This document shows, piece after piece, positions 43,578 to 57,448 of a stretch of DNA of 64,000 bases. Within the stretch, counting starts at the first letter, position 1, and every line of letters begins with the position of its first letter. Below the pieces are notes generated by a model. That model made no database searches. It worked only from the letters and a program-made list of their open reading frames with translations, and had not been told where the DNA came from. The stretch is from contig NZ_LMMU01000001.1 in the NCBI RefSeq assembly GCF_001422375.1, forward strand, positions 558,223 to 622,222, read 5' to 3'. Source of the DNA: Methylobacterium sp. Leaf99. Lineage in GTDB: Bacteria > Pseudomonadota > Alphaproteobacteria > Rhizobiales > Beijerinckiaceae. Made by a program: the position numbers and the translations under genes.

Positions 43578-43592
43578 CTTTGGTCGAACGTC
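43545..43592 (+). terminator. long inverted repeat at the end of the csbD-like gene
   Basis: Arms 43545-43564 and 43574-43592 pair over 19 bases with one bulged base and a nine-base loop (ttccaaaac). It overlaps the last ten codons and the stop of the short CsbD gene. No T-run follows, so it is a terminator-like or mobile hairpin element. Confidence 0.6.
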
Positions 43593-43636
43593 ACCCCCGA
43601 CGAACACGAACGTCACGAAAAAGAAGGAGAGACATC

Positions 43637-44140
43637 ATGGTCGATACGGACCGCATCACCGGCGCCGCCAAGGAACTCGGCGGCAAGGTTCAGGGCGCCG
43701 TGGGCGACCTCACCGGCTCGAAGCGCGACTCCGTCGAGGGCCGGGCCCGCGAGGCGCAGGGGACCGCCGAGAACCTGTACGGCCAGGCCAAGGACACCGT
43801 GCGCGATGCGGCCGACCACGTCGCCGACACCGCCCGCGACCTCGGTAGCAAGGTCCGCGACACGGTCGGCAACCTCGTCGGTTCGGGCGACGTCGAGGAC
43901 CGCGCGCGCCGCGCCCAGGGCGCCGCGGCGGACACCTACGAGCGCGCCGAGCGCTCGGTTCGCAGCGCCGGCCGCGAAGCCTACGACTATGCCGAGGACG
44001 CCTACGAAAATTCGGGCCGTTCCGTGCGCCAGGGCGGCCGCGAGCTGACCCATCAGATCGCGGAGCACCCCGTCGCCGCCCTGCTGGTGGCCGGCCTCCT
44101 CGGCTACGGCCTCGGCCTCCTCATCCACGGCCGCGACTGA
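43637..44140 (+). CDS. CsbD-family protein with membrane anchor
   Basis: 167 residues. Opens with a CsbD unit (TDRITGAAKELGGKVQGAVG), continues through about 90 residues of charged amphipathic helix (repeats of AxDxARDxxxKVRDxV type), and ends in a single hydrophobic segment with a glycine pattern (VAALLVAGLLGYGLGLLI) as in DUF883/ElaB-like ribosome or membrane-tethered proteins. A strong AAGGAGA precedes the ATG. Likely a stress-induced, membrane-anchored helical protein. Confidence 0.7.
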   Translation: MVDTDRITGAAKELGGKVQGAVGDLTGSKRDSVEGRAREAQGTAENLYGQAKDTVRDAADHVADTARDLGSKVRDTVGNLVGSGDVEDRARRAQGAAADTYERAERSVRSAGREAYDYAEDAYENSGRSVRQGGRELTHQIAEHPVAALLVAGLLGYGLGLLIHGRD

Positions 44141-44286
44141 ACCCGCAGGCCCACCATCGATGGGTCCGACCGCGCCGGGACCGCGCGGTCGGACCCTCGC
44201 GTTCCACCCCCCACTTTCCCTCGAACGACCGAACTTCTCGGACGAGCGAATTTCTTCGACGACCGACCACCCGGAGTACCTGTCAC

Positions 44287-45201
44287 GTGTCCACTTCCCC
44301 CATCCTCGCGACCCCCGCGGCCTCGGCCGACACCCGCACCGTCATGCTCAACTCGGTGTCGTGGGGCGCGATCTTCGCCGGCGCCGTCACCGCCCTGGTG
44401 ACCCAGGTCATCCTCAACATGATCGGCGTCGGCGTCGGCCTGTCGAGCGTCGGCACCACCGCCGCCGACAACCCGGCCGCCTCGACCCTGTCCATGGGCG
44501 CCGGGATCTGGTTCATCGGCTCCGGCATCGTCGCGGCGCTGGCCGGCGGCGTCCTCGCCGGCCGCCTCTCGGGCAAGCCCGTTGCCGGCACCGCCGGCCT
44601 GCACGGCCTCGTCTCCTGGGCGGTGACCACCCTCGTGGTCCTGTACCTGCTGACCTCGGCGGCCGGCGGCCTCATCGGCGGCGCCTTCTCGGGCGTGACC
44701 AGCACACTGGGCGGCGCCGGCTCCCTCGTGGGCGGCACCGTGCAGACGGCGGCCCAGGCGGCGGCTCCGTCCCTGTCGAAGATCTCGAATCCCCTCGACG
44801 GCATCGAGCAGTCGGTCCGCAACCAGGCCGCCGGCCAGGACCCGCAGGCCGCCAAGGACGCCGCCGTCGCGGCGATCCGCGCCCTTTTCACCGGTGACCC
44901 GGCCCAGAAGGCCCAGGCCGAGACCCGCGCCGCCGACGCCCTGGCCAAGGCCCAGGGCATCCCGGCCGATCAGGCCAAGGCGCAGATCCAGGACTACAAG
45001 AAGCAGTACGACGAGACCGTCGCCACCGCCAAGGTGAAGGCCGAGCAGGCCGCCGTCGCCGCCAAGTCCGCCGCCACCCAGGGCGCCTTCTACGGCGCGC
45101 TGGCCCTGATCCTCGGCGCCCTCGCGGGCTTCCTCGGCGGTCGCCTGGGCGCCCCGCAGCCCGCCACCCTGGTCGCCGGCTACGACGCCCGCCGCGTCTG
45201 A
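44287..45201 (+). CDS. PhnA-like multi-pass membrane protein
   Basis: 304 residues from a GTG. Four to five membrane segments: AIFAGAVTALVTQVILNMIG, WFIGSGIVAALAGGVLAG, SWAVTTLVVLYLLTSAAGGL and, at the end, FYGALALILGALAGFLGGRL. Between them lies an Ala/Gln-rich amphipathic stretch. The layout matches proteins commonly annotated as PhnA-like in alphaproteobacteria (no relation to phosphonate metabolism shown). Its placement among CsbD genes suggests an envelope stress role. Confidence 0.6.
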   Translation: MSTSPILATPAASADTRTVMLNSVSWGAIFAGAVTALVTQVILNMIGVGVGLSSVGTTAADNPAASTLSMGAGIWFIGSGIVAALAGGVLAGRLSGKPVAGTAGLHGLVSWAVTTLVVLYLLTSAAGGLIGGAFSGVTSTLGGAGSLVGGTVQTAAQAAAPSLSKISNPLDGIEQSVRNQAAGQDPQAAKDAAVAAIRALFTGDPAQKAQAETRAADALAKAQGIPADQAKAQIQDYKKQYDETVATAKVKAEQAAVAAKSAATQGAFYGALALILGALAGFLGGRLGAPQPATLVAGYDARRV

Positions 45202-45295
45202 ACGGTTCGCCGATCCTGCCGGTCCCGGTTCGCCGGGGCCGGTCACCGGTCGAACTCGGCCGGTTGTCATTCACCCACAGCACAGGGGCACCCCG

Positions 45296-45499
45296 ATGAG
45301 CAGCACCACCGACAAGATCAAGGGTCTGGCCAACGAAGCCGTCGGCAACGTCAAGCAGGGCGTCGGCAACGTCACCGGCAACGACAAGCTCGTCGCCGAG
45401 GGCAAGGCCCAGGAACTCAAGGGCGAGGCCCAGAAGACGGTGGGCGAAGCCAAGGACGGCGTCGCCTCCGTCGTCGACAAGGTCACCGGCAAGCGCTGA
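45296..45499 (+). CDS. CsbD-family stress protein
   Basis: 67 residues, a complete canonical CsbD protein: TDKIKGLANEAVGNVKQGVG, then NDKLVAEGKAQELKGEAQK and a C-terminal GVASVVDKVTGKR. CsbD proteins are induced by general stress in many bacteria; their activity is not established. It lies between the PhnA-like gene and another CsbD-like gene, all on the plus strand. Confidence 0.85.
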   Translation: MSSTTDKIKGLANEAVGNVKQGVGNVTGNDKLVAEGKAQELKGEAQKTVGEAKDGVASVVDKVTGKR

Positions 45500-45515
45500 G
45501 CCGGACGCCCTTCCC

Positions 45516-45546
45516 GTGGCGGGCGACCGGATTCCGGACCCGCCAC
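45516..45546 (+). terminator. hairpin after the csbD gene
   Basis: Two-part stem gtggcggg / cccgccac with an inner ccgg / ccgg pair around att, 17 bases past the stop. No T-run. It may attenuate read-through to the next gene. Confidence 0.45.
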
Positions 45547-45575
45547 CCCGTGCCTTTCGAACCCAGGAGAATGCC

Positions 45576-46013
45576 ATGAATCGCGATCAGTTCAGTGGCG
45601 CGTCCCGTCACCTCAAGGGTCGCGCCCAGACCGCCCTGGGCGGCGTTACCGGCGATCCGGCCCGCCAGGTCCGCGGCGCCGTCAACCAGGTGGCCGGCGG
45701 GGCGCAGTACGCCTACGGTCGCGCCCGCGACCGCGCCGAGGATTTCGCCGAGGACGGCCGGCATCTCGCCCACGAAGTACGGGACCGTGCCGGCAACCTG
45801 ATCGATGACGGCCGTCACCTCGTCGGCGAGGCGCGCGACCGCGCGGGAAACCTCATCGAGGACGGCCGCGACTTCGCCCGTCACGCGGCCAAGCGCGGCA
45901 CCACCTATGGCCGACAGGCCGTCCGCTACGCCGACGACAACCGCACCTCCGCCCTGCTCGGCCTCGCCGCCGTGGCCTTCGCCGTCGGCTGGCTGTCCCG
46001 TTCCAGGCGCTGA
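45576..46013 (+). CDS. CsbD-like protein with repeated helix and membrane anchor
   Basis: 145 residues. An N-terminal CsbD-type unit (SRHLKGRAQTALGGVTGDPA) leads into an internal repeat of about 17 residues, RDRAGNLIDDGRHLVGEA / RDRAGNLIEDGRDFARHA with an earlier weaker copy, and ends in a membrane segment (ALLGLAAVAFAVGWL). An AGGAGA lies before the ATG. It resembles the 43637 gene in plan and may be its paralogue. Confidence 0.65.
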   Translation: MNRDQFSGASRHLKGRAQTALGGVTGDPARQVRGAVNQVAGGAQYAYGRARDRAEDFAEDGRHLAHEVRDRAGNLIDDGRHLVGEARDRAGNLIEDGRDFARHAAKRGTTYGRQAVRYADDNRTSALLGLAAVAFAVGWLSRSRR

Positions 46014-50302: not shown

Positions 50303-50754
50303 GGAATGTCCTTGGGTTCGTGAAACGGACCGCCCGTCCGGCGGGCAGGTCCTCGACCAAGGGAACGACCCCTGTCCCGTCTCGTTCCCAGCCCCGCCCG
50401 TCCCCGAACGGAGGCGCCCGAACGGAAGCCATGGTGAACCCGCGTCCCGATCAACCCCGCGGCCAGCCTCGTTCGCACCCGCCTCCGCGCAGGCTGAACC
50501 GGGACAAGCCGGCGACCGATACGAGGGCTCGTGCGGGACACGCCAACCGAAGGGATCGTGACGTGCGATGGATCTGGTGAATTGGATCAGGCATTTTGGC
50601 GGAGAGGGGGTCCGCCATACCCTAGTCCGGGCATGTTTCCGAAAGTCCACGCATCCCAACAATTTCAGACTCTTAGGCCTCGATGCGTCTACCATAGTCC
50701 ACCAGCATCCGCTACGATCCACGTTCTGCGTTGGGGTAAACGTTGGGGTAGCGT
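50303..50754. other. core-island boundary region
   Basis: 452 bases between the esterase and the integrase with no gene. Composition drops from genome-typical GC to mixed at about 50560, so the left edge of the accessory region probably lies there. It contains a hairpin (tggcgga / tccgcca, 50597-50617) and a direct repeat next to the integrase start. Confidence 0.55.
50729..50750. promoter_or_regulatory. two direct cgttggggta repeats before the integrase
   Basis: Two perfect 10-base copies at 50729-50738 and 50741-50750, spaced 12 bases apart, ending four bases before the integrase ATG. They could be arm-type recombinase sites or an operator for int autoregulation. Inference from position and repetition. 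Confidence 0.5.
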
Positions 50755-51924
50755 ATGGCACGCGCGGTGAAGAAGCTGAGTGCGAGAGCTGCCGCGACGC
50801 TGGCTGCTCCTGGCCGTCACTCCGATGGGGATGGCCTCTACCTCGTCGTGGATACTAGTGGCGCCAGACGCTGGCTTTTCCTCTTCCGTTGGCAGGGAAA
50901 GCTCAAGGAGATGGGTCTGGGTGGCCTGTCTGCCGTTTCGCTGGCTGAAGCCCGCGAGAAAGCAGCGGCGGCACGTCAGATCCTCAAAGCCGGCAAGAAT
51001 CCCATTGAGCAGCGCAGGACGGCCAAGGAAGAGCGGCTGACGGCAGTCACTTTCGGCTCGTTCGCTGAGGAGGTCGTAAAATCCCTTTCTCAGGGCTTTC
51101 GCAACGACAAGCACAAGGCGCAATGGTCCTCGACGCTGACGACGTACGCCAGCTCGCTCTGGCACAAACCGATCGATGAGATCGGCACCGATGATGTCCT
51201 GGGTGTTCTGACGCCGATTTGGCACACCAAGAGCGAGACCGCCTCCCGCGTACGTGGACGCATCGAGCGGGTGCTTGATGCCGCTAAAGCCAAGGGCCTG
51301 CGGGCGGGCGAGAATCCGGCGCTTTGGCGGGGCCACCTCGACAAACTACTGCCGGCTCGTCGGAAGCTGACACGCGGTCATCACGCGGCTATGCCATTCG
51401 ACGACGTGCCGGGCTTCATGGCCGACCTCCGATCCCGCGATGCGATGGCGGGCCTAGCTTTGCAGTTCTGCGTTCTGAACGCGTCCCGCTCCGGCGAGGT
51501 GCTGGGCGCGCGTTGGATTGAGATCGACCGCAAGGCCAGGGTCTGGACAATCCCGGCGATGCGTATGAAGGCCGGCGTTGAGCACCGTGTGCCCCTCACC
51601 GATGCTGCACTCGCGATTCTCAACCAAGCCGAAACGGTTAGGCGCGGCGAGTACGTGTTTCCCGGACAAAAACCGGATCGCCCCCTTTCAATCATGGCCA
51701 TGGAGATGATGCTCAGACGGATGAAGGTGGAGGTGACGGTCCACGGCTTTCGCTCCTCCTTCCGCGACTGGGTTGGCGAGCGGACGGCATTCCCACGTGA
51801 GATTGCTGAAACGGCACTGGCGCACGTCGTCGGCGATGCAACTGAAAGGGCTTACCGCCGGGGTGATGCGCTCGAGAAGCGACGAGCGCTGATGGACGCG
51901 TGGAGTTGTTACTTAGCTTCCTAG
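50755..51924 (+). CDS. int: P4-type tyrosine recombinase (integrase)
   Basis: 389 residues. An N-terminal DUF4102-type arm-binding domain (DGLYLVVDTSGARRWLFLFR, LGGLSAVSLAEAREKA), a core-binding helical region and a C-terminal catalytic domain. Catalytic residues are visible: Arg in LNASRSGEVLG, HxxR in VHGFRSSFRDW, His in LAHVVGD and the Tyr in ATERAYRRGD. It would integrate and excise the element. It marks the left end of the accessory region; no tRNA gene is seen next to it. Confidence 0.93.
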   Translation: MARAVKKLSARAAATLAAPGRHSDGDGLYLVVDTSGARRWLFLFRWQGKLKEMGLGGLSAVSLAEAREKAAAARQILKAGKNPIEQRRTAKEERLTAVTFGSFAEEVVKSLSQGFRNDKHKAQWSSTLTTYASSLWHKPIDEIGTDDVLGVLTPIWHTKSETASRVRGRIERVLDAAKAKGLRAGENPALWRGHLDKLLPARRKLTRGHHAAMPFDDVPGFMADLRSRDAMAGLALQFCVLNASRSGEVLGARWIEIDRKARVWTIPAMRMKAGVEHRVPLTDAALAILNQAETVRRGEYVFPGQKPDRPLSIMAMEMMLRRMKVEVTVHGFRSSFRDWVGERTAFPREIAETALAHVVGDATERAYRRGDALEKRRALMDAWSCYLAS

Positions 51925-51977
51925 CTGACAAAGGCCGCCACGACCTCATAACGAATACATCAAAAAAGATAGATAAT

Positions 51978-52694
51978 ATGATCGATGAAAATGGAAATAC
52001 GGCTACAAAGCGGACGATCTTTTCAACACAAGAACACATAGTGGAAGCTCAAGCCGCAGGAGTTTCCCTCGATGGACTGTTTGTTATTCAAGCTTTATCG
52101 TCACTCGGAGAAAAGCTTGCGTTAGCTAATCTTCACCACAAAAGTGGATCGCAACGCGACGCGATAATGATGAGTGTTTCAGCGGTTATCGAGATGCTAA
52201 GCGCACTTCGAGCTCCTCATAACGAGCTCGAACCGCTAGTACATCTCTTTCACGCATTAGGAGATCTGGAAAATGGCAAGATTGACCCAGTTTTGCAAGC
52301 TGAAAAGATAAATAACCGGACGGGTGAAACTGTCTCTGAGTGGTGCGCTCGGGCATATTTATCCGCCGCATTGGAAGCTCGCATAAAACTTGGCGAGTCT
52401 ATTCTAAATTCGTCAACACATATCTCTAAAGAATTTGATATAGTCGATGATCGAAGCGTAAGCAATAAGAATGCAGCAAAACGACTCGTAGATTGGCGAG
52501 CTAATTTTAAAAGCGGTAAGATTTCATTCGACGATATTCATGCAGATTATTTCCGAATTATGAACGATCAAATTTCTATAGCAAACAATCTAAGCGGAGA
52601 CACAAGAATTGATATGCTGAATAGATTATACGTTATTAGCATGAATGAAGCAAAGCGATATCGAAATCGTACGGGTAAAAAGCCAGGGGGATAA
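51978..52694 (+). CDS. AT-rich island gene, unknown
   Basis: 238 residues from the ATG at 51978; an in-frame GTG at 51900 overlaps the integrase. GC is far below the chromosome average, pointing to recent acquisition. The protein looks mostly helical (VIQALSSLGEKLALANLHH, AAIMMSVSAVIEM-type stretches) with a basic C-terminus, and no membrane segment. No family recognised. It sits between int and the AlpA-like gene, a place where satellites often carry cargo such as defence genes, but nothing in the sequence shows that. Confidence 0.6.
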   Translation: MIDENGNTATKRTIFSTQEHIVEAQAAGVSLDGLFVIQALSSLGEKLALANLHHKSGSQRDAIMMSVSAVIEMLSALRAPHNELEPLVHLFHALGDLENGKIDPVLQAEKINNRTGETVSEWCARAYLSAALEARIKLGESILNSSTHISKEFDIVDDRSVSNKNAAKRLVDWRANFKSGKISFDDIHADYFRIMNDQISIANNLSGDTRIDMLNRLYVISMNEAKRYRNRTGKKPGG

Positions 52695-52790
52695 ACCCAT
52701 CTGAGATCGGTTTTAGGGGGAGTGTACATCGAACGCACTGAAGGAGGACATTGCATTCAAGCGATCACGCTCGGATTTGCGGAGACTCCT

Positions 52791-53003
52791 ATGGCCGACG
52801 AGCTTTCCATAAGCGCCACAACTCTAGCTTTTGGTATCGTTGAGGCAGCACAGGCTGCTGGAATTGGTCGATCAACGGTTTTCGAAGAGATCAACGCTGG
52901 CCGTTTAAAGGCTCGAAAGGCTGGGCGACGCACACTAATTCTCAGAGACGATCTCGCCGCTTGGCTAGCAAACCTACCTCACCGCAGCGCCGTTGCCCCG
53001 TAG
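52791..53003 (+). CDS. AlpA/excisionase-like DNA-binding protein
   Basis: 70 residues. Winged helix of the MerR/excisionase type: FGIVEAAQAAGIGRSTVFEEI then AGRLKARKAGRRTLI and DDLAAWLANLP, the standard ending. GGAG lies six bases before the ATG. By family and position it is the recombination directionality factor or an activator of int. It ends five bases before the helicase gene. Confidence 0.82.
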   Translation: MADELSISATTLAFGIVEAAQAAGIGRSTVFEEINAGRLKARKAGRRTLILRDDLAAWLANLPHRSAVAP

Positions 53004-53007
53004 CGTC

Positions 53008-54366
53008 ATGGCAGAGATCAAGCCAATTCACGCTTTTCGGGGCCTATACACCGACGATCTAATTACAGAAGACTATGCCGCTCGAATTTTTAGAGAGCGC
53101 CATGCCGGCAAGCTCCTTTATTGCCATAGCTCCAGCACTTGGTATGTATGGACAGGCGCTGCGTGGGTACAAAACCACGTTGGATTAGCATTTCAATGGG
53201 CTCGTATTATATGTCGAGAACTTGGTGAGAGTCAAAAACCGGGAGCACGTGTAACAGCAGGCAAGACATCGTTTGCCGCCGGAGTCGAACGGTTTAGCCA
53301 GTCAGACTCTGACTTTGCTGTCACTTCAGATACTTGGGATCCCGATCCTTGGATGCTGGGGACGCCGAGAGGTACAGTCGATCTGCGCACTGGCGTGCTG
53401 CAACCTGCTAATCCGAGAAATCGGATCACCAAGTTGACAGCTGTTGCTCCAGCACCAACCATGAGTTGCCCATGCTGGCTTGCGTTCCTTGATCAAGCCA
53501 CAAAATCAGATGCTGGCCTAATCCGTTTCCTGCAACAGTGGTGTGGGTACTCGCTAACTGGATCGACGCGTCAACATGCTCTAGTTTTTGTTTATGGACC
53601 AGGAGGCAACGGTAAGAGTGTTTTTATCAACGTGCTGATGGGTATTTTGGCTGATTACGCCAAGGTCGCAGCAATGGACACTTTTACCGCTTCCAGGGGA
53701 GATAAGCATCCCACGGATATGGCGATGCTTCGTGGCGCCCGCCTTGTTACGGCGTCCGAGACCTCGGAGGATCGGGCTTGGGACGAGGCACGGATTAAGC
53801 AACTCACCGGCGGCGATCCGGTCGCAGCTCGCTTCATGCGGCAAGATTTCTTCACTTTTGTCCCGAACTTTAAACTTACGATCGTCGGCAATCACCAACC
53901 GATGCTGCGCAATGTCGACGACGCAGCCCGGCGACGGTTCAGCATGGTGCCATTCGTTCATAAGCCCAAAGCACCAGATATGAGTCTGGAAGAAAAACTT
54001 AGGAACGAGTGGCCCTCAATTCTCCGGTGGATGATCAATGGCTGCCTCGATTGGCAGATGAATGGGCTATCGCGCCCTGAGAGTGTTGCCGAGGCAACCG
54101 AGGCATACTTCGCCGAACAGGATCTCTTGGGCCAGTGGCTAAGTGAAAAGTGCGGTCTAAGACTGGGTGATTCAAACGTTTGGGATAGGACAACAGATCT
54201 TTTTGCAGACTGGTCCGCTTACGCCCGCGCAGCCGGAGACGCGCCTGGCACGATGAAATCGTTCGGCCCAGCCATGCTCAGACACGGACTGCTGCCTCAT
54301 CGCACGAACTCAGCACGCGGCTTTAAAGGGGTAAGGCTCAAATCCCCGCCGCCGCCCGAAAGGTGA
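53008..54366 (+). CDS. D5-type phage/plasmid helicase (P4 alpha-like)
   Basis: 452 residues. N-terminal D5_N-type region (LYCHSSSTWYVWTGAAWVQN, DPWMLGTPRGTVDLRTG), then an SF3 helicase with Walker A GPGGNGKSVFIN, Walker B/sensor region (RLVTASETSEDRAWDEARIKQ, LTIVGNHQPML) and arginine finger area (DDAARRRFSMVPF). The C-terminal part looks like a winged helix that would bind the origin. There is no zinc finger or EGYATA primase motif of P4 alpha, so a separate primase or host primase must be used. The gene runs into the symmetric repeat array, which is a good origin candidate. Confidence 0.88.
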   Translation: MAEIKPIHAFRGLYTDDLITEDYAARIFRERHAGKLLYCHSSSTWYVWTGAAWVQNHVGLAFQWARIICRELGESQKPGARVTAGKTSFAAGVERFSQSDSDFAVTSDTWDPDPWMLGTPRGTVDLRTGVLQPANPRNRITKLTAVAPAPTMSCPCWLAFLDQATKSDAGLIRFLQQWCGYSLTGSTRQHALVFVYGPGGNGKSVFINVLMGILADYAKVAAMDTFTASRGDKHPTDMAMLRGARLVTASETSEDRAWDEARIKQLTGGDPVAARFMRQDFFTFVPNFKLTIVGNHQPMLRNVDDAARRRFSMVPFVHKPKAPDMSLEEKLRNEWPSILRWMINGCLDWQMNGLSRPESVAEATEAYFAEQDLLGQWLSEKCGLRLGDSNVWDRTTDLFADWSAYARAAGDAPGTMKSFGPAMLRHGLLPHRTNSARGFKGVRLKSPPPPER

Positions 54367-54474
54367 CGTGTGACGGTAGGTGACGGCAAATGTCTATTTC
54401 ACTTCATACGCACGTACACGCGCGCGCATACACAGTGAAAAGGGTTTGTGGCGTCACGATCCGTCACCCGTCAC
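54363..54474. repeat. mirror-symmetric GTGACG iterons around an alternating purine-pyrimidine tract
   Basis: Three GTGACG copies at 54363, 54370 and 54380, and three inverted copies (CGTCAC) at 54452, 54462 and 54469. The 7 and 10 base spacings are the same but mirrored, so the 24-base blocks match at 19 positions. Inside lie TTTCACT (54397-54403) and its inverse AGTGAAA (54434-54440), and between these is a strict pyrimidine-purine alternation of about 30 bases (54404/5-54434). It begins at the helicase stop. The layout suggests a replication origin with iterons for the helicase protein; a regulatory or terminator role is possible. Confidence 0.7.
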
Positions 54475-54590
54475 GTTCAAACACCAGCTCGCTTGAGCCC
54501 CGCACGCTGAAGGCCGCCGGCAGAAATAGAATGACGGCCTTCCCTGCCGGCCCTTCCTAACGCGTCACTCCACCCTCGAAGGATAGCTCC

Positions 54591-55061
54591 ATGTTCATCA
54601 CCACGCCGAATGGAATTCTTAACACCGATCAAGTTCGATTTATTCGAGAGAATCCTGAACGTACCGCGGGAAAGCCATCGTGTTACGTGACGATGTCGGA
54701 CGGATCGGAAAAAGTCATTGAGGCAAGCATTGCATCGCTTGGTAAGCTGTGCGGCACTATCACCCCTGCGCCTGAAGGTTTCTTTCTAACAAGGCCAAAC
54801 CTATCGCTTGATTTACAACAACTAGACGGGCGTCGTATCACGACGGAAACGATCATTGCATTCCGACACCGGGGAGGAAGCGCAGTTCCTGTTCCGATCA
54901 CGGCTGCTGGAGAACTTCAGCCAAAACTAGGCGAGCTGTATACTATCCAAGACCCAACCGGTCGGTGCACCGGACCAACGGGTACCTTCGACCACTGGCA
55001 AGATTTCCTTGAAGACTGTCTGAAGCGTGCGCAGCCGACTGACCGCGATGAGGTCATTTAG
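54591..55061 (+). CDS. island hypothetical protein
   Basis: 156 residues, mixed alpha/beta, soluble, with no known motif. The N-terminal half (NTDQVRFIRENPERT, CYVTMSDGSEKVIEAS) resembles short strand-turn units of a small beta domain. It follows the repeat array and precedes the next gene by two bases, so it belongs to the same island operon. Function unknown. Confidence 0.6.
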   Translation: MFITTPNGILNTDQVRFIRENPERTAGKPSCYVTMSDGSEKVIEASIASLGKLCGTITPAPEGFFLTRPNLSLDLQQLDGRRITTETIIAFRHRGGSAVPVPITAAGELQPKLGELYTIQDPTGRCTGPTGTFDHWQDFLEDCLKRAQPTDRDEVI

Positions 55062-55063
55062 CG

Positions 55064-55873
55064 ATGGCTGCCAACGTCGAGAGCACTGGGCAGGAAGCAC
55101 CAGAGATGCCGGAAGCAATCCCCCCCAAGCCTCGACGTCCGGCTCGGTCTCAGGACGAGCTACAGCGGATCAACGAGGCTCGCGCGCGACGGCAGGGGCG
55201 GCGGGAGCCGGTCTCAGTTTCAGCTGCCCGTACTCCGGAAGGCAAGCTCGACTTCGAGCCTCCGCACAACGACGGACAAGGCTGGCTCGCTCGCCTGACG
55301 GACGCGCTGGGAACCGGGTCGGACCATTTTGCCCTGGCTCAGTTGCGGCTTCTGGTGGGGATGCTGCCTCCAACGGACAATGCCCCTCAAACGATCCTGA
55401 ACAGCCTCCTGGCGGCCGTGGAGGGCATCAGGCCACTGAATGAGGCGGAAGGCATGCTGGCCGTCCAGATGGCCTCTACGCATCATGTGGCGATGGAGTG
55501 CCTGGCCCGAACGAGTAGGGCCAGCAATTTCCTTGAGCTCGAAGCCAATGGGGTACTCGCAACCAAGCTTCTGCGCACCTACGCGTTGCAGCTTGAAACG
55601 CTCACCAAACTCCGCAGAGGGGGCAGCCAAAAAGTGACCGTTGAGCACGTCCACGTCTACCAAGGTGCCCAGGCGATCGTCGGGAACGCGAGCGCCCCGG
55701 GAGGGGGGCAGTACGGAAATGGAGGACAAGCCCATGAACTCACTGGACCGACAGCCAACGCCCTTCCGGATTGCCGCTCGCTGCTGCGCCAAGACCCGGC
55801 AGGGAACGGAGTGCCAGTCGCCAGCAGTGCGGGGGAAGAAGCGGTGCCGAATGCACGGCGGCGCACAGGGTAG
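55064..55873 (+). CDS. conserved island protein with HVHVYQGAQAIVG motif
   Basis: 269 residues. A basic, disordered N-terminus (PPKPRRPARSQDELQRINEA) precedes a helical region (HFALAQLRLLVGMLP, NEAEGMLAVQMASTHHVAME, LLRTYALQLETLTKLRRGG) and the motif KVTVEHVHVYQGAQAIVG. This family occurs in alphaproteobacterial islands and prophages, usually next to an HGGA protein, and has no assigned function as far as I know. Its last 140 bases overlap the next gene in another frame, and the tail encoded there looks family-typical. Confidence 0.65.
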   Translation: MAANVESTGQEAPEMPEAIPPKPRRPARSQDELQRINEARARRQGRREPVSVSAARTPEGKLDFEPPHNDGQGWLARLTDALGTGSDHFALAQLRLLVGMLPPTDNAPQTILNSLLAAVEGIRPLNEAEGMLAVQMASTHHVAMECLARTSRASNFLELEANGVLATKLLRTYALQLETLTKLRRGGSQKVTVEHVHVYQGAQAIVGNASAPGGGQYGNGGQAHELTGPTANALPDCRSLLRQDPAGNGVPVASSAGEEAVPNARRRTG

Positions 55874-55994
55874 TGGAGCGCCTAGAGGAAAGCGAAATGG
55901 TGCATTTACGCACGGCCATTGTACAACCGAAGCATTAGCGCTCCGGAAGTGGTGCTGCGACCAGCTACGCAGCGCAAGGCAACTGATAAAATGA
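55734..55994 (+). CDS. HGGA-motif small Cys-rich island protein
   Basis: 86 residues. Core pattern RCCAKTRQGTECQSPAVRGKK then RCRMHGGAQGSGAPRG and NGAFTHGH, with Cys and His spaced as in a small metal-binding module. A GGAGG eight bases before the ATG supports the start, although it lies 140 bases inside the previous gene (different frame). The HGGA family is widespread in phage-like islands and of unknown function. Confidence 0.72.
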   Translation: MNSLDRQPTPFRIAARCCAKTRQGTECQSPAVRGKKRCRMHGGAQGSGAPRGKRNGAFTHGHCTTEALALRKWCCDQLRSARQLIK

Positions 55995-56968: not shown

Positions 56969-57448
56969 GTGAAAATCCGAATGCCTGAAAACGCTGAAAC
57001 CCAAACGACTGATTTCGTCGATATGACGGGCGACATCGTCGCTGCGTATGTGTCGAACAACCCCGTTCGACCTTCCGATCTGTCCGACCTTATCCGCAAC
57101 GTCCACGCTGCGCTCAACGGTCTCGCTGACGGGGCTGCAGCAGCCGCACCGAAAGCCGAGATCGAGAAGCCGACGGCCGCGCAGATCCGCAAGTCCGTGA
57201 CACCCGGCGGCATCGTCAGCTTCGTCGACGGCAAGACCTACAAGACCCTGAAGCGGCACCTCACCACGAAGGGCTTCGACCCGCGGAGCTACCGCGAGCG
57301 CTTCGGTCTGCCGGCCGACTACCCGATGGTCGCTTCGAGCTACGCGGCACAGCGCTCGGCGTTGGCGAAGTCGATCGGTCTTGGCCGGGTCGCCGCTCGC
57401 ACCGACAGCGAGCAGCCCAAGTCCCAGGGCCGCAAGAAAGCGGCCTGA
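56969..57448 (+). CDS. MucR/Ros-family transcriptional regulator
   Basis: 159 residues from a GTG at 56969 with GGGGG nearby; ATG 56981 is the alternative. The MucR region is clear: GDIVAAYVSNNPVRPSDLSDLI, SVTPGGIVSFVDGKTYKTLKR, then FGLPADYPMVASSYAAQRS and LAKSIGLGR. In classical Ros/MucR a Cys precedes the DGK segment and forms a C2H2 zinc finger; here it is Ser, so no zinc may be bound. MucR proteins regulate surface polysaccharide and mobile DNA by binding AT-rich sites. Confidence 0.85.
   Translation: MKIRMPENAETQTTDFVDMTGDIVAAYVSNNPVRPSDLSDLIRNVHAALNGLADGAAAAAPKAEIEKPTAAQIRKSVTPGGIVSFVDGKTYKTLKRHLTTKGFDPRSYRERFGLPADYPMVASSYAAQRSALAKSIGLGRVAARTDSEQPKSQGRKKAA

Follow-up and report, generated by a model that had tools for sequence, protein, structure and literature searches.

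A mirrored iteron array with an alternating centre at the 3′ end of a D5 helicase gene: a proposed replication origin in a mobile element of Methylobacterium sp. Leaf99

In the window, that is, the whole stretch of 64,000 nucleotides that was analysed, the GC content of about 0.7 drops to 0.38–0.66 from 50.5 kb, and a probable integrated mobile element is taken to begin near this position. Composition marks no right end of this element, because the GC content stays below 0.7 until the profile ends at 60 kb. The element carries an integrase, an AlpA-like gene, a helicase, and the array described below (Table 1), and a phage satellite of the PICI/P4-like kind is a plausible identity for it. A 13-base direct repeat, CATCCGCTACGAT, flanks the element genes at 50706 and 57570; it is a weak candidate for a pair of att sites, being not significant (near the chance expectation, estimated at about 0.08, with 13-mer matches also present in one of five control window pieces) and having no convincing partner in the related locus L006. 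The long matches of relatives to the left flank stop by query position 693 of 1001, before the junction, no tRNA target is present in the window, and PADLOC returned no match for four element proteins. A MucR/Ros regulator gene lies at 56969–57448, 3′ of the array, and the plasmid pMNOD03 likewise has a MucR gene downstream of its helicase. Elsewhere in the window, neighbouring open reading frames at 43580–46013 resemble tandem CsbD-type stress proteins, as judged from their translations.

Table 1. Genes of the element and components of the mirrored array (window positions).
Feature	Position	Strand	Remark
Tyrosine integrase of the element	50755..51924	+	
Hypothetical protein	51900..52694	+	between int and the AlpA-like gene
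AlpA/excisionase-like HTH_17 protein	52722..53003	+	
D5_N/DUF5906 SF3 helicase, proposed initiator	53008..54366	+	452 aa; predicted winged helix at residues ~384-447
Whole mirrored array, proposed replication origin	54363..54474	.	112 bp
Left iteron 1, GTGACG	54363..54368	+	includes helicase stop TGA 54364-54366
Left iteron 2, GTGACG	54370..54375	+	
Left iteron 3, GTGACG	54380..54385	+	
Inner arm TTTCACT	54397..54403	+	corresponds to the AT-richer spacers of relatives (often TTTTCC-like)
Strictly alternating purine-pyrimidine tract	54405..54434	.	30 bp; longest in the window
Inner arm AGTGAAA	54434..54440	-	
Right iteron 1 (inner), CGTCAC	54452..54457	-	
Right iteron 2, CGTCAC	54462..54467	-	
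Right iteron 3 (outer), CGTCAC	54469..54474	-	
Hypothetical protein 3′ of the array	54591..55061	+	similar ORF behind the array in L006
HGGxSTG-domain protein	55641..55994	+	

The array begins at the stop codon of the helicase gene, which sits within the first GTGACG, and all six hexamers and the inner TTTCACT/AGTGAAA pair lie exactly where the first-pass annotation had placed them. The mirrored spacing is equally exact (7 and 10 bases on the left, 10 and 7 on the right), and the pyrimidine-purine alternation, put by that annotation at about 30 bases, is a run of exactly 30 bp with a GC count of 18/30, the second-longest alternating run in the 64-kb window being 13. When all hexamers were searched across 64 kb, 2 of 30 Markov shuffles also held one that occurs six times within 130 bp; the six-copy count alone is unexceptional for a search of this size, and it is the mirrored arrangement that is exceptional. 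In 1.04 Mb of shuffled locus sequence, arrays of at least five copies were absent and four-copy arrays numbered 14. Rfam at gathering scores gave no match in 50–58 kb, and a terminator and promoter scan of the array found none.

The adjoining helicase matches PF08706 (4.9e-24) and PF19263 (1e-12), with D5_N beginning at residue 25, and is assigned by NCBIfam to PRK14709 and to the P4-family primase C-terminal domain (TIGR01613, 'P4 family'). A primase catalytic domain is missing from its Pfam and NCBIfam matches, and the scan of element proteins identified no separate primase either. Modelled in full (mean pLDDT 80.5), the protein matches the SaPI5 primase-helicase 7om0 over residues 7–449 (Z 25.1, rmsd 5.4, 379 aligned) and likewise D5 relatives from ASFV and poxviruses. 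The C-terminal domain modelled alone (pLDDT 84.8) is a predicted winged helix, the best match of which is the RFX winged helix–DNA complex 1dp7, weak in E-value (6.5e-3) with a probability of 1.00 and a TM of 0.62; the best 50 Foldseek matches of this model contain no P4 origin-binding domain, an absence that carries no weight, and none of them reaches E 0.001. With D5_N, an SF3 core, and a C-terminal winged helix, the modelled protein has the predicted build of a D5/SF3 initiator helicase.

Helicase relatives were gathered from GTDB genomes, IMG/VR, whole genomes, phages, and plasmids, and the removal of loci with identical helicase ends left 117 loci, the window included. The region from −150 to +1000 of each stop codon was scanned for six 7-mers in mirrored spacing, with a score of at least 37 of 42 counted as a confident call. 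A confident mirrored 3+3 array stands at the helicase 3′ end in 45 of the 117 loci, among them the window with a score of 40, and all 45 arrays sit within −60 to +260 of the stop codon. Among the controls, this threshold was never reached in 117 shuffled regions, once in 108 upstream regions, and twice in 117 coding regions; the two coding-control scores, 38 and 40, are identical to the scores of L067 and L068, where short helicase matches probably let the control enter the array. A laxer rule, which makes use of the tract (score 34–36 plus an alternating run of at least 12), adds 19 probable loci. Confident and probable arrays together were found in 15 of 18 loci at a helicase identity of at least 60%, 29 of 41 at 50–60%, 17 of 36 at 40–50%, and 3 of 22 below 40%, and 38 of the 53 undetected loci (out of 117) fall below 50% identity. 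Among the 15 misses at 50% identity or more, ten keep degenerate or partial iterons plus the tract by eye (L005, L023, L046, L064, L076, and L081–L085), L047 ends at a contig edge, and L038 and L087 show no array by eye. Another of these misses, L035, has an array about 2 kb beyond its helicase (L035:8301-8394). In L026/L133 (G387:C111:6923-8229), the helicase is split across two overlapping frames and no array is seen behind it, as if helicase and array had decayed together.

The geometry is conserved and the motif is not. Across 41 arrays that are less than 80% alike, 30 different consensus 7-mers occur; some differ by register alone (GTGACGG versus GGTGACG, or GACGGAT), truly different words include TGAGGCG, TGAGACG, GGAGGGT, AGGGACA, GGTTACG, and TTGCGAC, and TGAC is present in 20 of the 41. 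The main spacing classes are 7,10 (15 of 41) and 9,9 (13 of 41). With mirroring not imposed, all 15 listed arrays that have three exact copies per side were mirrored, three of them being second copies of the same DNA. One of the left iterons overlaps the helicase stop codon in 18 of the 45 confident loci. The first-pass annotation had suggested a search for the same six-motif pattern beside the D5 helicases of related islands, and had named a helicase conserved without the pattern as counter-evidence; the architecture is in fact kept beside homologous helicases (45 of 117 loci), geometry and tract alike, but the exact GTGACG word is not.

The same association emerges from a reverse search by DNA pattern alone. 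A TGACG array pattern matches 6 of 111 Methylobacterium genomes, each time directly 3′ of a D5 helicase, and a backward control pattern matches 0; across 385 genomes of the class, the array pattern matches only the genome that the window comes from. In IMG/VR, two TGACG-type patterns match 9 and 19 contigs, and 23 of these 28 arrays stand 21–268 bp behind a D5 helicase, with many of the 23 looking like near copies of each other (equal distances, nearly identical tracts). Among the other five contigs, the L165 array follows a DUF5906 protein, the L167 array follows a protein matching a primase PHROG, and the L152 and L166 arrays lie at the edge of the available sequence, L152 having a terminase small subunit gene on the other side. 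At L156:323-431, a mirrored GTGACG array with a 25-bp alternating tract lies at the 3′ end of a VapE-like (PF05272) SF3 helicase; the layout thus crosses helicase families. The array observation is real and not the product of chance.

More distant relatives, namely 17 phage and plasmid loci of 29–47% helicase identity (L110–L116 and L138–L147), were scanned for 2+2 exact hexamers, for which shuffled sequence yields 30 matches per 1.25 Mb. Six of the 17 (L110, L114, L116, L139, L140, and L142) have such hexamers no more than 400 bp 3′ of the helicase. In L111 (3+3, ahead of the helicase operon), L112 (some 4.5 kb off), and L138 they lie elsewhere, and L113 and L147 have single weak matches. The scan found none in the remainder, of which L115, L145, and L146 still display degenerate mirrored repeats by eye and L141, L143, and L144 display none. 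The L111 array (2798-2903), on an 8.5-kb Thermaerobacter plasmid, consists of perfect 3+3 mirrored GTGAAC in 9,9 spacing around an AT-alternating centre, upstream of the replication operon. On pMNOD03 (L076), the array was missed by the main scan at a score of 33 and was seen by eye; its 22-bp tract is the longest alternating run in the plasmid, for which a possibly incomplete gene table lists no other replication gene. Plasmid pCB376_1 also encodes RepA, a second initiator, and a GC-skew minimum at the array was not seen in two plasmids, pMNOD03 included.

The central tract is conserved in a manner of its own. An alternating run of at least 14 lies near the stop codon in 64 of 114 loci, compared with 15 of 570 shuffles, 1 of 111 regions at +550 to +950, 0 of 112 upstream regions, and 2 of 117 coding regions. 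The 41 confident arrays were chosen regardless of the tract; 33 of them hold a run of at least 12, and when each inner sequence is compared with its own shuffles, the run is longer at p<0.01 in 32 arrays and at p<0.05 in 36, the misses being L041, L030, L029, L059, and L129. The first-pass annotation had called the window tract Z-DNA-prone, a description that agrees with its 30-bp run and with the alternation beyond composition in 32 of 41 arrays. Palindromy beyond alternation has a mean z of −0.04 and reaches p<0.05 in 1 of 52 arrays (a set that includes probable ones); because it is at a random level given alternation, alternation itself is what is kept, and by this comparison of sequences, selection acts on the alternation and not on palindromy. 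Tract GC content averages 69% over 33 arrays, against 45% and 52% in the spacers, and stacking amounts to −1.74 against −1.35 and −1.42 kcal/mol per step (nearest-neighbour, standard parameters); being GC-rich and more strongly stacked than the spacers, the tract is therefore not an ordinary melting element. Two Firmicute relatives, the Bacillus phage L142 and the Thermaerobacter plasmid L111, have by eye an AT-alternating centre instead.

If the helicase reads the iterons, their sequence is expected to follow the DNA-binding part of the protein. Partial Mantel tests were run on 56 of 60 non-redundant arrays, with L025, L068, L067, and L019 left out because their helicase alignments were incomplete. 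With the core held, iteron distance correlates with C-terminal distance (0.287, p=0.001); with the C-terminal domain held, its correlation with core distance is lower (0.12, p=0.07). When D5_N is held, the correlation with the C-terminal domain is 0.305 (p=0.001, n=56) and 0.427 in confident arrays (p=0.001, n=37); the correlation with D5_N, which is nearly as variable as the C-terminal domain (mean distance 0.60 versus 0.69), is not significant when the C-terminal domain is held (0.103, p=0.09, n=56; 0.097, p=0.18, n=37). A narrower core, residues 160–370, retains a weak link to the iterons with the C-terminal domain held (0.155, p=0.026; 0.21, p=0.033). In sliding windows, the highest correlation falls at residues 410–447, with a second, smaller peak at 200–244. 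For instance, L048 and L080, both probable arrays and L048 of uncertain register, differ by 5% in their cores, 40% in their C-terminal domains, and 39% in their iterons. The iteron word thus compared tracks the C-terminal winged helix of the helicase, the two drifting together.

The 112-bp array is very probably the replication origin of the element, read by its own D5 helicase. Among the readings weighed here, this one, which the first-pass annotation had put forward for the array and the neighbouring D5/SF3 helicase, is the best supported, and the array is conserved 3′ of homologous helicases. Points that weigh against it are the 53 loci in which no array was detected, the stable GC-rich centre, the GC skew of the two plasmids, the RepA of pCB376_1, the weak residual link between core and iterons, the absence of a primase among the scanned proteins, and the terminase gene beside the L152 array. 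By analogy with known systems, the helicase encoded just upstream would read the GTGACG iterons via its C-terminal winged helix, and the mirrored three iterons on each side would set two helicase assemblies face to face across the centre. The AT-richer spacers (TTTCACT/AGTGAAA, in relatives often TTTTCC/GGAAAA), together with the alternating tract, would be the place where the duplex gives way, and the two loaded hexamers would then unwind the DNA bidirectionally. Speculatively, the tract might flip to Z-DNA, with its B–Z junctions starting the melting. A wider generalisation, offered tentatively and rather doubtful as a whole, is that SF3-helicase origins of this type are widespread; in GC-rich hosts, strict alternation of no fixed sequence between the half-sites might turn into Z-DNA under supercoiling, and B–Z junctions beside the spacers might seed melting, which is the job of an AT-rich element, with the iteron code rewritten along with the winged helix to give mutually compatible replicons on one scaffold.

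A different mechanism, improbable on balance, is a stem-loop origin as in pRN1, in which the helicase would recognise paired arms or an extruded hairpin or cruciform instead of separate iterons. Like the pRN1 stem-loop, going by the available text of PMC4234260, the array lies behind an SF3 replication protein, and none of 200 shuffles folds as well as the window strand (DNA z −4.15, RNA z −5.35). Spacers are 63% complementary (104/165) as opposed to 32% outside the array (142/450), and mirrored mates in the wider set of 60 share deviating letters more often than non-mates do (19 versus 3.5 of 115, permutation p<0.001), an excess that may come in part from mis-registered copies falling in the TTTTCC/GGAAAA arms. 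In the 41 confident arrays, however, mates and non-mates have 0.75 and 0.81 mismatches of 7 (p=0.06), with shared deviations at 6 versus 2 of 57 (p=0.075). Direct repeats are present, for which a hairpin has no need; in the 7,10 class, 22 of 45 linker positions match, a level that is not random yet falls short of full pairing; and the tract lacks palindromy beyond alternation (1/52 at p<0.05). A cruciform as sole explanation was set aside on these grounds.

Mirrored repeats also fit dimeric regulators, and the array lies about 117 bp ahead of the next gene (54591), which would suit an operator bound by the AlpA-like protein or by some other regulator of the genes that follow, an alternative already raised in the first-pass annotation. 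Such an operator is very unlikely: the sites are tied to the helicase across islands, phages, and plasmids, the iteron sequence varies with the C-terminal domain of the helicase itself, and a scan covering one promoter type shows no sigma-70-like promoter in 54300–54620. The linkage of the array to SF3 helicases, a VapE-like one included, and to their DNA-binding domain makes a packaging (cos/pac) or recombination site of the element exceedingly improbable, even with terminase small subunit genes near the array in some relatives (L109 and L152).

An origin read by its own helicase would have uses beyond this element. The signature is independent of sequence and could serve to locate the origins of many uncharacterised phages, plasmids, and islands with D5 helicases, while each helicase winged helix paired with its DNA word would form a ready set for a recognition code, and the helicase/iteron pairs could be used for building compatible plasmids. 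A PICI-like layout is now seen in alphaproteobacterial islands, a plasmid, and phages of unproved PICI status. If the tract acts as Z-DNA, a direct role of left-handed DNA in the initiation of bacterial replication becomes testable on a small, defined origin.

Several known initiators work in a comparable manner. The P4 helicase, the alpha protein described in PMC4234260 and PMC6092414, has a winged helix and binds repeats of the P4 origin through it, as is proposed here; unlike the window helicase, it carries a primase domain, and the alpha/ori system has a separate second site (crr). The SV40 T antigen core origin uses inverted pairs of short repeats to load two facing SF3 hexamers, like the proposed array, but its origin-binding domain is unrelated, and the repeats, spacing, and centre differ. 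Among PICI/SaPI elements, the iterons differ between islands.

The first-pass annotation had invoked a P4-type precedent and an undescribed array. The helicase-adjacent iteron origin layout stands, but the PICI origin (PMC6092414) and the SCCmec Cch2 site (PMC7581432), as far as the available portions of these papers describe them, are closer than P4 and mean that the general layout has been described; a GC-rich alternating centre in such origins was not found in the literature covered, nor was any link between Z-DNA, a replication origin, iterons, and a helicase, subscription papers being mostly outside that coverage. A further paper, in its available part, treats another satellite origin (PMC7145576). 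For pRN1, the available text reports a 100-nt stem-loop behind the replication protein (orf904) that is required for replication; like the array, it is a dyad-symmetric stretch of roughly 100 nt immediately behind an SF3 replication protein, with a sequence that drifts and a structure that is kept, yet it is described without iterons, and conserved pairing is the criterion there (PMC4234260), whereas tract palindromy is unselected here.

According to the available text of PMC7581432, the SCCmec helicase Cch2, which belongs to the D5_N type, uses its C-terminal domain to bind three iterons that directly follow its own gene, and SaPI origins occupy the corresponding position. The Cch2 site consists of one set of three direct iterons, as opposed to the mirrored 3+3 here; inverted repeats are present there and unneeded for binding, that description makes no mention of an alternating tract, unlike the present arrays, and Cch2 works with a polymerase pair (PMC7581432). 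In the PICI origin, as described in the available text of PMC6092414, two iteron sets flank an AT-rich region immediately 3′ of rep, and the rep-ori unit replicates a plasmid in E. coli. The array resembles it in lying immediately 3′ of the initiator gene and in having two sets of short iterons, here 3+3, around a centre, and the window helicase shares its fold with the SaPI5 primase-helicase 7om0; the mirrored 3+3 spacing is measured for the present arrays, and the PICI sets are compared through their text description alone (PMC6092414). The PICI centre is AT-rich, whereas that of the array is GC-rich on average and strictly alternating (PMC6092414). The general layout is thus already described for PICI and SCCmec elements, and the present arrays are distinguished by their mirrored 3+3 iterons, their drifting code, and their GC-rich alternating centre.
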